A model generated the notes under the pieces. That model ran no database searches, was not told the DNA's origin, and worked only from the letters and a program-made list of their open reading frames with translations. A stretch of 64,000 bases of DNA. Origin: Streptomyces taklimakanensis. GTDB taxonomy: Bacteria > Actinomycetota > Actinomycetes > Streptomycetales > Streptomycetaceae. Shown here in pieces: positions 38,938 to 44,068 of this stretch (its first letter is position 1; each line of letters starts with the position of its first letter). Made by a program: the position numbers and the translations under genes. The stretch lies in contig NZ_WIXO01000001.1 in the NCBI RefSeq assembly GCF_009709575.1, forward strand, positions 372,001-436,000, written 5' to 3'.

Positions 38938-41145
38938 GTGCGAGGGCCCGCCGCCCCCGGATCCGCCGCGGACTTCGGCCTGCGGCTGCTGGAGCCTGTG
39001 CTCACCGAGTTGGCGCGCGACACCGGCGCCTCCGGGTACCTGCTCTACCTGCTGCCACCGGGTGAGGGAACGCTGCGGCTCGCCGCCCTGTACGGGGCTC
39101 CCCCGGAGATCGCCGCCCCGTGGACCCGAGTGCCGCTGGAGTCCCCGATCCCGGTCGCGGACGCCGTGCGCGAGCGGCGCCTGGTGTGGCTCGGAGGCCG
39201 GGAGGAGATGGCGCGCCGCTATCCGCGGCCCGCGCTCGTGCTGCCGTACTCCTTCGTGATGGCCGCCGCCCCGATCGCCACCGACACCGCGACGTGGGGC
39301 GGCCTGGCCCTGATGTGGCCGGGGTCCCACGCGCCCCGGCCCAGCCCCCACGAACGGGGTCTGATCTCGGCCGCCTGCCGTCGCCTGGGCCTGCTGCTGG
39401 GGCACGCGGCCGACAGCGGGCACCCGGTGCTGCCCGGCCCCCGACCCCACGTGCTGACGCGCCCGCGCACCCACGTCCCCGGACGGAGCGAGGCGCTGGC
39501 CGCGGCCGACTTCGCCGAGCGGCTCCCCGGAGGATGCTGCTCGCTGCGCATGGACGGCCGGATCGCCTTCGTCGACTCCGCCGCCGCCGAACTGCTCGGG
39601 GCCGACATCGGCGAACTCCTGGGCACCCTGCCCTGGCGCGTCCTGCCCTGGCTGGACGGCCCCGCCTTCGAGGACCGCTACCGAGCCGCGCTGGTCGGCC
39701 GCCAGCCCACCTCCTTCACGGCCCTGCGCCCCCCGGACCGCTGGCTCTCCTTCCAGTTGTTCCCGGACGCCACCGGCATCAGCGTCCGGGTCTTCCCGGC
39801 CCTGGAACACATCGGGGACCCCCTGCCCCCACCCGGCTCACCGGACGTCGACGACCCCGGGGAGGCCGCGGAACGGACGCGCCCGTCGGTGCCCACCGCG
39901 GCGAGCGAGACGACCGCGCTGTACCACCTGATGCACCTGGCCGCCACGCTCACCGAGGCGATCGGCGCGCGGGACGTGGTCGAGCGGGTGGCCGACCAGC
40001 TGCTGCCCGCCTTCGGGGCCGAGGGCATCATGCTGTTCGTCGCCGAGCACGGCAGGCTCCGGATCGTCGGTCACCGCGGCTACAGCGCCGAGGTCGCGGA
40101 GCGCTTCGACGGGTTGCGGCTGACGACCGGGGAGAGCCCGGCCGCGCGGACCCTGAACACCGGGGTGCCCGCCTTCTTCGGGAGCCCCGAGGAACTGGAG
40201 CGGCTCTACCCCGGGCTGACCACCCTGACCGGCAAGGGGGCCTGGGCCTTCCTGCCCCTGATCGTCTCCGGGCGTCCCGTCGGCTCGCTGGTGCTCTCCC
40301 ACGCCCGTCCCCACACCTTCCCCCCGGACGAGCGCGCCGTCCTCACCTCGATCGCCGGACTGATCGCCCAGGCCCTGGACCGCGCCCGCCTCTACGACGT
40401 CAAGGACCAGCTCTCACGTCGTCTCCAGGCCGGGCTGCTGCCCCACACCCTGCCCCGGATCCCCGGCCTGGACGTCGCCTCCCGTTACCTGCCCGCCGGA
40501 CACGGCATGGGGGTGGGCGGCGACTTCTACGACCTGATCCGTCTCGGCCCCGCCGCGGTCGGCGCGGCCATCGGCGACGTCCAGGGACACAACGTCACCG
40601 CCGCCGCGCTCATGGGACAGGTCCGCACCGCCGTCCACGCAACCGCCGGGGCGTCGCCCGGCGAGGTCCTCGCCCGCACCAACCGGCTGCTCACCGATCT
40701 GGACCCGGGCCTGTTCACCAGCTGCCTGTACGTCCACATCGACCTGGCGCACCACACCGCCCTCCTGGCCGGCGCCGGGCACCCGCCTCCGGTGCTGCGC
40801 CACCCCGACGGACGTGCGGAGGTCCTCGACCTGCCGCACGGTCTGTTGCTGGGCATCGATCCCACCGCCGACTACCCGACGACCGAGATCCCCCTGCCAC
40901 CGGGCGCGGTCCTCGCCCTGTACACCGACGGGCTGGTGGAGGTGCCCGGCGTCGACCTGGGAGACTCGATCGACGAGCTCGCCGGGCACCTCGAACGGGC
41001 CGGACACGAGAGCATGCGCGCCCTGGCCGACACCCTTCTCCGCCGGGTCGGGCAGCCCACCCCGCGCGGCGACGACACGGCCCTGCTCCTCGTCAGCCCC
41101 CGGCACGGCACCGGACGCTCCCGGTCCTCCGGCGTCCGGACGTGA
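38938..41145 (+). CDS. SpoIIE-type PP2C phosphatase with GAF and PAS domains
   Basis: A 735-residue sensor phosphatase. Order: GAF-like domain (about 5-165), PAS-like domain (about 195-285; GGCCSLRMDGRIAFVDSAAAELLG), GAF domain (about 320-480; GAEGIMLFVAEHGRLRIVGHRGYS), PP2C domain (about 500-725; GVGGDFYDLIRL, AIGDVQGHNVTAAA, LALYTDGLVEVPG, GDDTALLLV). Unlike the protein at 7417 it lacks a C-terminal HATPase. It probably dephosphorylates a STAS antagonist. GTG 38938 follows GGGGAGG. Confidence 0.88.
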   Translation: MRGPAAPGSAADFGLRLLEPVLTELARDTGASGYLLYLLPPGEGTLRLAALYGAPPEIAAPWTRVPLESPIPVADAVRERRLVWLGGREEMARRYPRPALVLPYSFVMAAAPIATDTATWGGLALMWPGSHAPRPSPHERGLISAACRRLGLLLGHAADSGHPVLPGPRPHVLTRPRTHVPGRSEALAAADFAERLPGGCCSLRMDGRIAFVDSAAAELLGADIGELLGTLPWRVLPWLDGPAFEDRYRAALVGRQPTSFTALRPPDRWLSFQLFPDATGISVRVFPALEHIGDPLPPPGSPDVDDPGEAAERTRPSVPTAASETTALYHLMHLAATLTEAIGARDVVERVADQLLPAFGAEGIMLFVAEHGRLRIVGHRGYSAEVAERFDGLRLTTGESPAARTLNTGVPAFFGSPEELERLYPGLTTLTGKGAWAFLPLIVSGRPVGSLVLSHARPHTFPPDERAVLTSIAGLIAQALDRARLYDVKDQLSRRLQAGLLPHTLPRIPGLDVASRYLPAGHGMGVGGDFYDLIRLGPAAVGAAIGDVQGHNVTAAALMGQVRTAVHATAGASPGEVLARTNRLLTDLDPGLFTSCLYVHIDLAHHTALLAGAGHPPPVLRHPDGRAEVLDLPHGLLLGIDPTADYPTTEIPLPPGAVLALYTDGLVEVPGVDLGDSIDELAGHLERAGHESMRALADTLLRRVGQPTPRGDDTALLLVSPRHGTGRSRSSGVRT

Positions 41146-41215
41146 ACCGCGGCCCGCCCCACCCCGGCGTCCGGGACGGTGCGGGAGGGTGCGGGAGGGT
41201 GCGGGACGCGGCGGT

Positions 41216-41806
41216 TCACCCGGTCGCGGGCCGGGCACGCACGTGCATCCGTTCGCCCTGCGGCCCGAAGATGCTGATGAACTCCACGGGCTCCGTACCG
41301 GCGTTGCCGAACCCGTGAGGGGTGCGGGTGTCGAACTCCGCGGCCTCCCCGGCCCGGAGGACGAGGTCGTGTTCGCCCAGGGCCAGGCGCAACCGGCCCG
41401 ACAGGACGTAGAGCCACTCGTACCCCTCGTGGGTCTGCTGCTCCGGGCGGTCCTCTCCCCCGTACCCGGCGGGCATGACCTGTTTGTAGGCGTGCAGACC
41501 GCCCAGGTTGCGGGTGAGCGGCACGAAGGTCTGTCCGTATCGGGTGAAGGGGCGGGGGCGGATCCTGGGGTCGCCCGTCGGAGGCGCTCCGACCAGCTCG
41601 TCCAGAGGGACGTCGTAGGCCCTGGCCAGGGGGAGCAACAGTTCCAGGGTGGGTCTGCGCCGTCCGGACTCCAGGCGCGAGAGGGTGCTGACCGAGATCC
41701 CCGTGGTCTCGCTCAGTCGGGTCAGCGTGGTGCCCCGCGCCCGGCGCAGTGCGCGCAGTCTCGGCCCCACCTCGGTCAGCACGCTCGTGACCTCGTCTCC
41801 CGCCAT
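41216..41806 (-). CDS. XRE-family regulator with C-terminal cupin domain
   Basis: A 196-residue repressor. The helix-turn-helix is LRRARGTTLTRLSETTGISVSTLSRLESGRRRPTLELLLPLARAYDVPLDEL (about 15-65) and the cupin runs from ETHEGY-like HEGYEWLYVLSGRLRLALGEHDLVLRAGEAAEFDTRTPHGF. The ATG at 41804-41806 is chosen; a GTG two codons earlier is possible. Family members commonly repress a divergent gene and themselves. The three half-sites at 41830-41859 lie just upstream. Confidence 0.9.
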   Translation of the reverse strand: MAGDEVTSVLTEVGPRLRALRRARGTTLTRLSETTGISVSTLSRLESGRRRPTLELLLPLARAYDVPLDELVGAPPTGDPRIRPRPFTRYGQTFVPLTRNLGGLHAYKQVMPAGYGGEDRPEQQTHEGYEWLYVLSGRLRLALGEHDLVLRAGEAAEFDTRTPHGFGNAGTEPVEFISIFGPQGERMHVRARPATG

Positions 41807-41829
41807 GTCCACCGTTCCCTCACCCTCTT

Positions 41830-41859
41830 TTGCCGTTCCGGCAAGGAATTTTGCCGGAA
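41830..41859. promoter_or_regulatory. three-half-site operator for the XRE-cupin regulator
   Basis: TTGCCG-TTC-CGGCAA (41830-41844) overlaps TTCCGGCAA-GGAATT-TTGCCGGAA (41836-41844 and 41851-41859). Both inverted repeats are perfect and share the middle half-site. It is 24 bases from the regulator start and 48 from the flavoprotein start. Confidence 0.7.
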
Positions 41860-41906
41860 GCTCGGATGCGGGGCGACCCTGTGCCGTGAACGAAGGGATG
41901 CGCGAC

Positions 41907-42923
41907 ATGACACACCACAACCGTCACCTCGTTTCCTCCGATCCCCCCTCCGCGTACGGCGGACGCCGCCACGACGTGGTGGTCGTCGGCGGCGGCGCCG
42001 CCGGACTGAGCGGTGCGCTGGTCCTGGCACGGGCACGGCGTTCGGTACTGGTCGTCGACTCCGGGCAGCCGCGCAACGCCCCCGCGGACGGTGTCCACGG
42101 CTATCTGGGACACGAGGGTGTCCCTCCCTCCGAACTCCTGGCCCGGGGCCGCGCGGAGGTGGCCGAGTACGGCGGCGAGGTCGTCCCCGGCACCGTCGTG
42201 GCCGCCGAACGGGCCGGGGACGGGTGGTTCCGACTCGTCCTCGACGACGGAACCGCCCTCCTGGCGGGCCGTTTGCTGATCACCACCGGACTGGTGGACG
42301 AGTTGCCCGACGTACCCGGTCTCGCCCGACGGTGGGGACACGACGTGCTGCACTGCCCGTACTGCCACGGCTGGGAGGTGCGCGACCGGCCCGTCGGCGT
42401 CCTGGCCACCGGACCGCTCGCCGTGCACCAGGCCCTGCTCTGGCGTCAGTGGACCGACGACGTGGTCCTGTTCCGGCACACCGGGCCCGAATTCGACCGG
42501 GCGGAGCACGAGCGGCTCGCCGCGCGCGGGATCGCGGTCGTCGACGGGGAAGTGGCCGCGCTGGAGGTGACCGGTGACCGCCTCACCGGGGTGCGACTGG
42601 CCGGCGGCCGGACCGTTCCCCGACGGGTGCTGGTGGTCGCCCCACGGCTGACCGCCCGCGGCGGCCTCCTGGCCGGGCTCGGCGTGGAGACCGTCGAGCA
42701 GGAGTCCGGCGGCCACGGCATCGGCCGCCACGTCCCCGCCGATGCCACCGGCGCGACCTCCGTGCCGGGGGTGTGGGTGGCGGGCAACGTCACCGTCCTG
42801 ACCGAACAGGTCGTCGGCGCCGCGGCGGCGGGCGCGCGGGCCGCGGCGGCGATCAACGCCGATCTGATCACCGAGGAGACCGACCGGGCCGTCGCCGCCC
42901 GTGCGAAGGAGGCACTGCGATGA
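41907..42923 (+). CDS. thioredoxin-reductase-like FAD/NAD(P) oxidoreductase
   Basis: A 338-residue flavoprotein. The FAD loop is VVVGGGAAGLSGALVLARA, the redox pair lies in HCPYCHGWEVRD, and GVWVAGNVT is the second FAD motif. It resembles the short thioredoxin-reductase-like group found with MerR/XRE regulators rather than housekeeping TrxB. I use the ATG at 41907, nine bases after GAAGGG; in-frame GTG 41886 and ATG 41898 are alternatives. It overlaps the next gene by ATGA. Confidence 0.88.
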   Translation: MTHHNRHLVSSDPPSAYGGRRHDVVVVGGGAAGLSGALVLARARRSVLVVDSGQPRNAPADGVHGYLGHEGVPPSELLARGRAEVAEYGGEVVPGTVVAAERAGDGWFRLVLDDGTALLAGRLLITTGLVDELPDVPGLARRWGHDVLHCPYCHGWEVRDRPVGVLATGPLAVHQALLWRQWTDDVVLFRHTGPEFDRAEHERLAARGIAVVDGEVAALEVTGDRLTGVRLAGGRTVPRRVLVVAPRLTARGGLLAGLGVETVEQESGGHGIGRHVPADATGATSVPGVWVAGNVTVLTEQVVGAAAAGARAAAAINADLITEETDRAVAARAKEALR

Positions 42924-43567
42924 GCGGGAACACGAACGGCACCCCGGCCGGGGAGTACTGGGAGGACTTCTACGGCGCGCGCGACCACGTCTGGAGCGGC
43001 AGGCCCAATGTCGCCCTGGTGCGCGAGACCGACGGACTGCCCCCGGGAACCGCGCTGGACCTGGGGTGCGGCGAAGGGGCCGACGCGATCTGGCTGGCAC
43101 GACGGGGCTGGCGGGTCACCGCCGTCGACGTCTCCGGGACCGCCCTGGAACGCGGGGCCGAGCACGCGCGCCGGGCGGGCGTCGCCGACCGGATCGACTG
43201 GCGGCGACACGATCTGGCCGAGTCCTTCCCCACCGGTTCCTTCGATCTGGTCTCCACCCATTTCCTGCACTCCCCCGGCGACGTCGAGCTGCCCAGGGAG
43301 CGGATCCTGCGCGACGCGGCGGCGGCCGTCTCACCGGGCGGGGTGTTGCTGGTCGTCGGCCACTTCGGCCCTCCTCCCTGGGAGACCGACCACGACCACG
43401 ACGTGCGCCTGCCCTCGCCCGAGGAGGTCCTGGAGACGCTCGGGCGGCCGGGCCGCGAGTGGGAGCTGCTGGTGTGCGGCGAGCACCGACGCACCGTGAC
43501 CGGGCCCGACGGGCAGCCGGCCGAACTCACGGACGGCATCGTCGAGCTCCGGCGCCCGGCCGGCTGA
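42920..43567 (+). CDS. class I SAM-dependent methyltransferase
   Basis: A 215-residue methyltransferase. EYWEDFYGARDHVWSGRPN is typical of thiopurine/tellurite-type (TehB-like) enzymes, and ALDLGCGEGADAIWLARRGWRVTAVDVS is the SAM site. It is translationally coupled to the flavoprotein (ATGA at 42920-42923) and under the same XRE-cupin operator. A role in detoxifying a small molecule or metalloid fits, but is inferred. Confidence 0.88.
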   Translation: MSGNTNGTPAGEYWEDFYGARDHVWSGRPNVALVRETDGLPPGTALDLGCGEGADAIWLARRGWRVTAVDVSGTALERGAEHARRAGVADRIDWRRHDLAESFPTGSFDLVSTHFLHSPGDVELPRERILRDAAAAVSPGGVLLVVGHFGPPPWETDHDHDVRLPSPEEVLETLGRPGREWELLVCGEHRRTVTGPDGQPAELTDGIVELRRPAG

Positions 43568-43569
43568 GT

Positions 43570-43623
43570 CCCCCGTCCGGAGGCGGTGCCGTACCGGCGG
43601 CGCGCGGGCCCGCCGGACGGGGG
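43570..43623. terminator. bidirectional terminator with long loop
   Basis: An 11-bp perfect stem (43570-43580 with 43613-43623) between the convergent methyltransferase and osmC-like genes; the 32-base loop is itself GC-rich. Confidence 0.55.
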
Positions 43624-43639
43624 CGTCGCGCCCGGGGCG

Positions 43640-44068
43640 TCAGACCAGCCGCGCGTCCAGGGTGATGTTCTCGACCCCCGCCAGGGCCTGGCTGACCGGG
43701 CAGTTGGCCTTGGCGTCCTGGGCGGTCGCCTGGAAGTCCTCCTCGGACAGCCCGGGAACGGTGGCGCGGACGGTCAGCTTGATGGCGGTGATCCCCTCGC
43801 CCGGCTGGAAGGTGACGTCCGCCTGGGTGTCGATCCTCTCGGCCGTGTGGCCCTTGCGCGCCAGGGCGCCCGAGAAGGCCATGGAGAAGCAGGAGGAGTG
43901 GGCCGCCGCGATCAGCTCCTCGGGGCTGGTCTTGCCACCGGGCTGCTCGGCGCGGGCCGGCCAGCTCACGTCGTAGGTGCCGATCCCGGAGGACTCCAGG
44001 GCGACGGTGCCCTTGCCCTCCATGAGGTTGCCCTCCCAGTTGGTCCTGGCGGTACGGGTGGTTGCCAT
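43640..44068 (-). CDS. OsmC family peroxiredoxin
   Basis: A 142-residue organic-hydroperoxide reductase. The two catalytic cysteines lie in AAHSSCFSMAFSG and KANCPVSQAL, and GKTSPEELIAAAH is conserved. The ATG at 44066-44068 has GGGAG. It has normal length for the OsmC branch, detoxifying lipid and organic peroxides in the cytoplasm. Confidence 0.93.
   Translation of the reverse strand: MATTRTARTNWEGNLMEGKGTVALESSGIGTYDVSWPARAEQPGGKTSPEELIAAAHSSCFSMAFSGALARKGHTAERIDTQADVTFQPGEGITAIKLTVRATVPGLSEEDFQATAQDAKANCPVSQALAGVENITLDARLV

Follow-up and report, generated by a model that had tools for sequence, protein, structure and literature searches.

Transcription starts on both strands of one short stretch of DNA at the bidirectional promoters of Escherichia coli, where the promoters are opposed and polymerase cannot occupy both (Warman et al. 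2026, PMC12825309). The E. coli pairs share a -10 element, and their starts are most commonly 18 bp apart. In Corynebacterium glutamicum, the XRE-family regulator MsrR acts at divergent, overlapping promoters and represses both itself and the divergent gene (PMC7532634); it senses oxidants through Cys62, and the main text of that paper does not contain the word "cupin". On the side of the enzymes, HlmI is an O2-dependent dithiol oxidase; its disruption cut the production of holomycin and increased sensitivity to this compound, and S-methylated intermediates accumulate in an hlmI mutant (PMC3826145). Another bacterial dithiol oxidase, DnoP, gives Pseudomonas aeruginosa protection against gliotoxin and related toxins (PMC11317636).

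In this report, we describe a locus within a 64,000-nucleotide stretch of Streptomyces taklimakanensis DNA (hereafter, the window) at which an XRE-cupin regulator gene diverges from genes for a flavoprotein and a methyltransferase. An earlier note, whose span of 41806-42923 corresponds to the regulator start and the flavoprotein stop, had proposed that three TTGCCG/CGGCAA half-sites constitute an operator shared by these genes, and that the two overlapping palindromes formed by the half-sites permit alternative placements of one dimer. The observation is real. Our analysis makes the claim of an operator stronger and that of a two-palindrome switch weaker, and it reassigns the third half-site to a -35 element.

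As in E. coli, starts are predicted here on both strands of a short stretch. However, the element that the opposed promoters share in this type of locus is the -35 (TTGACAA/TTGTCAA), and the predicted starts lie back to back, roughly 66 bp apart; we therefore rejected a bidirectional promoter of the shared -10 type, with starts about 10-23 bp apart. MsrR is the nearest regulated layout among the literature compared, and its repression of two genes is what we propose for the window's regulator (P0002), although the sensor differs. Among the matches listed by our literature search, which covered few subscription papers, we found no description of a promoter pair with a shared -35, and none of a binding site for this actinobacterial XRE-cupin family.

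Half-sites and their conservation

The half-sites, as read from the window, are TTGCCG (41830-41835), CGGCAA (41839-41844), and TTGCCG (41851-41856). All three sit in the 91 bp (41807-41897) that separate the regulator start codon from an ATG at 41898. The palindromes with spacings of 3 and 6 reported in the earlier note are both exact, and the latter extends to arms of 9 bp. The flavoprotein likely starts at one of two nearby in-frame ATGs, 41898 or 41907; GTG 41886 is another in-frame alternative, and the frame is open further upstream. The methyltransferase start overlaps the flavoprotein stop as ATGA (Table 1). No Rfam family was detected in 41000-43700 at gathering score, and an RNA element was rejected.

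Table 1. Features of the divergent locus, in coordinates of the window
Feature	Coordinates	Strand	Comment
XRE-cupin regulator P0002 (196 aa)	41216..41806	-	ATG at 41806; HTH_3 and Cupin_2
FAD flavoprotein P0003, HlmI/DepH-like	41907..42923	+	Pyr_redox_2; 4ntd match; CPYCHG
SAM-dependent methyltransferase P0001	42920..43567	+	Methyltransf_25, 7.1e-16
Probable core operator TTGCCG-TTC-CGGCAA, convergent palindrome	41830..41844		Conserved in relatives; sole perfect copy in genome
Third half-site TTGCCG, predicted flavoprotein -35	41851..41856	+	Aligns with TTGTCA on enzyme strand of relatives
Predicted flavoprotein -10, GACCCT, 18-base spacer	41875..41880	+	xAnnnT pattern in relatives
Slot of predicted regulator -35 of relatives (TTGACA)	41852..41857	-	CCGGCA in window; lost
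Slot of predicted regulator -10 of relatives (GGCAAA/TGCAAT)	41829..41834	-	Overlaps operator; spacer of 17 from TTGACA
Divergent palindrome with 9-bp arms, TTCCGGCAA-GGAATT-TTGCCGGAA	41836..41859		

Dinucleotide shuffles of the 91 bp contain a 9-bp inverted repeat (spacer of at most 12) in 37 of 5,000 cases and at least three hexamer half-sites, in both orientations, in 301 of 5,000. Because shuffling produces such arrangements at these rates, single-sequence statistics are no more than suggestive, and a chance origin of the half-site arrangement is, on these statistics, only moderately unlikely. TTGCCG is not significantly enriched in the window (39 occurrences where 30.4 are expected, a count equalled or exceeded in 8 of 100 shuffles). 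The strong evidence for the site is its phylogenetic conservation and its rarity in the genome.

For conservation, we started from 147 loci with a regulator match and removed 15 that had identical 120-base surroundings and 8 that were paralogues in the same genome or repeats of the window, which left the window and 123 relatives. Eighty of these relatives are the best 80 of at least 520 candidates (53 of the 80 are Streptomyces by record title), and the other 43 are best matches from further genomes, mostly Streptomyces. Genera among the 80 include Streptomyces, Kitasatospora, Nonomuraea, Geodermatophilus, Amycolatopsis, Actinoplanes, and Pseudarthrobacter. Since the relatives were collected by similarity of the regulator, they are not independent of each other. 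The cuts used below (10 of 12 operator positions, 45% identity for neighbors, and the xAnnnT pattern) were set after the sequences had been viewed; the spacer profile and the loci without an enzyme neighbor serve as an internal control for the xAnnnT cut.

TTGCCG-N3-CGGCAA is found at 10 or more of its 12 positions in 118 of the 123 relatives, within -200 to +30 of the regulator start. In a subset of 92 loci, it occurs in 88, versus 29 of 1,710 control windows drawn from that same subset. The five loci that fall below the cut are L010, L019, L057, L108, and L132, of which L057 and L132 resemble variants of the operator by eye. The 6.14-Mb genome has one perfect copy of this pattern, and also one of CGGCAA-N6-TTGCCG, both at this locus. 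Because it is kept in relatives and unique in the genome, the convergent 15-bp palindrome is the probable operator of the XRE-cupin regulator. Thus, the part of the earlier note that proposed an operator common to the regulator and the flavoprotein-methyltransferase pair is supported, by confirmation of the families to which the proteins belong and by conservation of the site; its two-palindrome switch is not supported as stated.

We rejected a wider regulon, because with at most one mismatch allowed the genome has three further copies of the operator, and GC-biased open frames enclose two of these. Under the same tolerance, the operator pattern occurs 4 times per strand, fewer than the 27 of its reversed control; the 6-spaced pattern is likewise rarer than its control (10 versus 28). 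One of the one-mismatch copies, CTGCCGGGACGGCAA (L119, C1:1507896-1507910 of the same genome), lies outside GC-biased open frames of 80 or more aa, and is a possible weak second target of the regulator. Two own-genome paralogues, L082 and L084, carry TTGCCATCCTGGCAA and TTGCCAGTGAGGCAA upstream; for this reason, sites of the type TTGCC-N5-GGCAA may be shared throughout the wider regulator family.

Predicted promoters on the two strands

In what follows, columns are numbered along the regulator strand, with the operator beginning at column 0. Ninety relatives have TTGACA at columns -13 to -8, followed 17 bases later by GGCAAA (52 of the 90) or TGCAAT (23 of the 90). The first ATG or GTG is at columns 22-24 in 87 of these 90 loci, and in all 87 it is in frame and open into the regulator gene. 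The regulator promoter of relatives is therefore probably leaderless, with an mRNA that begins at the start codon. Given that the operator covers the spacer and most of the predicted -10, binding is expected to silence the regulator's own gene, and autorepression is likely. As xAnnnT is absent from the regulator strand at spacers of 16-18 from TTGACA in all 90 relatives, the -10 assignment uses only position and the fixed start codon. Both predicted -10 elements, for the regulator and for the enzymes, match TATAAT poorly, and a consensus sigma-70 scan of 41700-42000 in the window found no promoter.

Seven loci (L033, L036, L044, L045, L051, L054, and L062) have a regulator match that begins inside the operator (TTGCCGCTATGGCAA and similar). 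By eye, a TAnnnT-like hexamer precedes the match in each, which suggests that their regulator promoter has shifted.

Counting the window, TTGACAA is present at the presumed shared -35 place in 86 of 119 operator-bearing loci. Read on the enzyme strand, it is TTGTCAA, so this near-palindromic sequence can be a -35 in both directions. Within this class, xAnnnT occurs on the enzyme strand at a spacer of 17 or 18 in 35 of 35 loci with the flavoprotein and in 13 of 14 with the methyltransferase only, versus 2 of 37 with neither enzyme. At other spacers from 8 to 31, it occurs 0 to 3 times per neighbor group. Among all operator-bearing relatives, the enzyme -10 is found in 64 of 66 with an enzyme neighbor versus 7 of 52 without.

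For these neighbor calls, a match of at least 45% identity had to lie in the flank fetched for the locus, and some of these flanks are short. The calls divide the 123 relatives into 19 with both enzymes, 33 with the flavoprotein only, 16 with the methyltransferase only, and 55 with neither. Exceptions to the association are L025 and L042, which have an enzyme neighbor and no -10, and L004, L040, L051, L062, L064, L070, and L142, which have a -10 and no neighbor; the methyltransferase match of L040, at 43%, is just below the cut. Thus, the divergent -10 goes with the enzyme neighbor, whereas loci that lack the neighbor still have the operator and the regulator promoter. Like the anatomy of the locus and its conservation, this association is an observation. 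We consider the assignment of TTGACAA as a regulator -35 alone to be incomplete, since an enzyme-strand -10 at fixed spacing accompanies the enzyme neighbor. From the common position of the predicted -35 elements, polymerases on the two strands are expected to exclude each other.

In the window, the enzyme strand reads TTGCCG-N18-GACCCT, which we predict to be the -35 and -10 of the enzyme promoter. The center of the operator is about 50 bases upstream of the predicted transcription start. Among the loci compared, the nearest relatives by regulator identity (84-85%) are L126, L127, and L001. They carry TTGACAAACATCTTTGCCGGATCGGCAAATGG or a near copy, whereas the window carries CCGGCAAAATTCCTTGCCGGAACGGCAAAAGA. 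Their third position is TGACAA instead of CGGCAA, and they lack the perfect 6-spaced palindrome, which seems to have arisen by change in the lineage of the window, where relatives have their putative -35. In the window, the regulator-strand -35 is lost, and the enzyme-strand -35 is kept, altered from TTGTCA to TTGCCG. TTGCCA or TTGCCG is found at the enzyme -35 in 8 of the 71 relatives that have an enzyme -10. The third half-site is therefore most likely the -35 of the enzyme promoter. In the same three relatives, a further single half-site, CGGCAAG, follows the shared -35 ahead of the start of the flavoprotein and touches the enzyme -10.

The regulator may possibly contact the third half-site as well, with a weak G[A/G]CAA contact and three contacts in all. 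This form of the half-site is widespread among relatives. Indirect evidence comes from 19 loci that have an enzyme -10 but no longer the TT of the regulator -35. At column -10, ten of them have G, seven A, two C, and none T, although a T there would give the enzyme -35 its consensus TTGAC. In TTGACA loci without enzyme neighbors, A is present at column -7 in 37 of 41 and at column -6 in 30 of 41, and both positions fall outside the TTGACA hexamer.

The regulator and the enzymes

P0002 has an N-terminal HTH_3 domain (1.8e-16) and a C-terminal Cupin_2 domain (1.4e-17), both above the Pfam cut-off, as in the XRE-cupin family. PuuR-type XRE-cupin repressors (NF007408) have the same HTH and cupin architecture, and their model matches residues 13-182 of P0002; the score of 44.4 bits versus a cut-off of 211 excludes P0002 from the PuuR equivalog. 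In an alignment of 124 regulators that includes the window's, H126 and H164 are present in all and E130 in 119. Cysteine is absent from P0002 and from 106 of the 124, and the other 18 have one or two. With no cysteine in P0002, a thiol switch of the MsrR type was ruled out. This lack, together with the conservation of H126, E130, and H164, makes it likelier that P0002 senses a bound ligand or metal and not thiol state. A more distant XRE-cupin paralogue (L083, 39% identity) is at C1:122319-123267 of the same genome, opposite a flavoprotein fragment that matches just residues 23-103 of P0003, at 64%, and is perhaps a truncated second copy of it.

P0003 matches Pyr_redox_2 (1.7e-19), and its best PDB match (8.1e-82) is 4ntd, which we take to be HlmI. 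In the PDB search, 4ntd is titled "Thioredoxin reductase", and our literature search for 4ntd and HlmI named together returned nothing. Further matches are 3fbs, DepH (2.4e-47), and, more distant, GliT (4.9e-23). CPYC is at residues 150-153, and CPYCHG aligns with 4ntd, 3fbs, and DepH. By sequence similarity, with its CxxC motif and closest solved relatives, P0003 groups with HlmI, DepH, and GliT. Like those enzymes, it lacks NADPH-binding motifs; unlike in their setting, its gene adjoins genes for a methyltransferase and an XRE-cupin regulator. We conclude that P0003 resembles dithiol oxidases of the HlmI/DepH type, with that activity predicted. Thioredoxin reductase TrxB was rejected on the score (78 bits versus the TIGR01292 cut-off of 343.45), and the NADPH motifs GxGxxA and HRRxxxR found in the genome's TrxB-type protein are absent from the aligned places in P0003.

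P0001 has 53 PDB matches of many kinds, some of which are named thiol methyltransferase (best 9h0d, 4.4e-8). Tellurite methyltransferase TehB, which the inducers listed in the earlier note had brought to mind, was rejected, since P0001 scores 41.6 bits versus 218 for NF008405 and 26.6 versus 219.5 for TIGR00477. An OsmC-family gene (Pfam, 5.1e-19) at 43668-44068 on the minus strand is oriented towards the methyltransferase gene; it encodes another thiol-peroxide-type protein, next to the dithiol-type enzyme pair.

Models of control

Our favored reading, held with moderate confidence, is that this is a shared control region through which the regulator represses itself and probably the enzyme operon, and from which a cupin ligand releases it. 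In relatives, both promoters of the divergent pair would use one -35 position, with a single operator adjoining. A dimer of the XRE-cupin protein would bind the 15-bp TTGCC-N5-GGCAA, which overlaps the spacer and -10 of the predicted leaderless regulator promoter, with autorepression as the most likely result. The putative enzyme -35 is separated from the operator by six bases, and the bound regulator would probably repress this promoter too by crowding or contacting the -35 at the third half-site. A ligand of the cupin domain would then release the regulator and turn the enzyme operon on. The enzymes would probably neutralize reactive dithiols: the HlmI-like flavoprotein by oxidizing dithiol to disulfide, and P0001 presumably by S-methylation. 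We infer DNA binding by P0002, promoter activity, repression, the ligand, and the enzyme activities from sequence. A repressor that acts by blocking would not classically sit where the operator is centered, about 50 bases upstream of the predicted enzyme start, and this position would suit an activator too. Also, because 55 of the 123 relatives have no enzyme neighbor in the fetched flank, the regulator is not seen to serve the enzyme pair locally in those loci.

A more general proposal, which we regard as tentative, is that actinobacteria have a widespread switch consisting of two divergent, often leaderless promoters whose common near-palindromic -35 (TTGACAA/TTGTCAA) is a degenerate third half-site. 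The orientation of polymerase and occupancy by the regulator would then compete for the same bases, and lineages like that of the window would have made the -35 a perfect half-site, lost the regulator promoter, and kept the enzyme promoter.

Repression of both genes is our first choice, and an autorepressor that is also an activator is our second. In the latter model, which by itself is somewhat unlikely, the dimer represses its own gene and activates the enzyme promoter opposite, where a weak -10 ([G/C]AnnnT) would not suffice unaided; blocking the regulator promoter would also free the shared -35 for polymerase facing the enzymes. Consistent with this model, the enzyme -10 at a spacer of 17 or 18 begins with G or C in all of the 35 flavoprotein loci listed, and the operator covers the regulator -10 yet lies upstream of the enzyme -35. 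It also accords with E. coli bidirectional promoters, at which activators of one direction tend to repress the other (PMC12825309). However, known XRE-cupin regulators are mostly repressors, and -50 is not a standard position for an activator. It is unlikely that a second dimer binds cooperatively beside the first, with the third half-site as one arm, and covers the enzyme -35: half-sites 1 and 3 form a direct repeat with a register of 21 bp, or two helical turns, and the A's kept past TTGACA fit such contact, but columns -21 to -17, where the second arm should lie, are only weakly conserved in a GC-rich background. A neighboring dimer two helical turns away is nonetheless a more natural use of the third half-site than a shift of one dimer.

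Such a shift, between overlapping palindromes as concentration changes and hence between autoregulation and target control, was the earlier note's model, and we judge it highly unlikely. The three perfect half-sites, the widespread G[A/G]CAA form of the third, and the lack of T at column -10 are in its favor. However, the half-sites of the 3-spaced palindrome converge (TTGCC>..<GGCAA) and those of the 6-spaced one diverge (<GGCAA..TTGCC>), so on geometric grounds a dimer suited to one palindrome could fit the other only if both of its recognition helices were reversed, and any three alternating half-sites yield one palindrome of each polarity. Moreover, only the convergent palindrome is kept throughout relatives, and the three nearest ones lack the perfect 6-spaced palindrome. 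That the palindromes are products of chance, or form an RNA hairpin, and have no operator function is extremely improbable: shuffles supply three half-sites in 301 of 5,000 cases, but the site is conserved across many genera and, in 87 of 90 TTGACA loci, ends just before the in-frame start codon of a predicted leaderless mRNA, which means that it would not be transcribed with the regulator gene.

As the third half-site coincides with the predicted start signal for genes of thiol chemistry, a single short segment of DNA probably governs two genes that face apart. For a large family of actinobacterial XRE-cupin regulators, the probable operator supplies a recognition motif that is ready to be tested. 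The divergent -10, gained or lost with the enzyme neighbor, offers a natural experiment in the origin of divergent promoters next to a gene under autoregulation, and the sharing of a -35 instead of a -10 would, if true, extend what is known of bidirectional promoters. The methyltransferase, with its HlmI-like oxidase partner, is a candidate for S-methylation of the kind that dithiol intermediates undergo in an hlmI mutant (PMC3826145). If the enzymes do act on dithiols, the operon is a candidate inducible defense against dithiol antibiotics.
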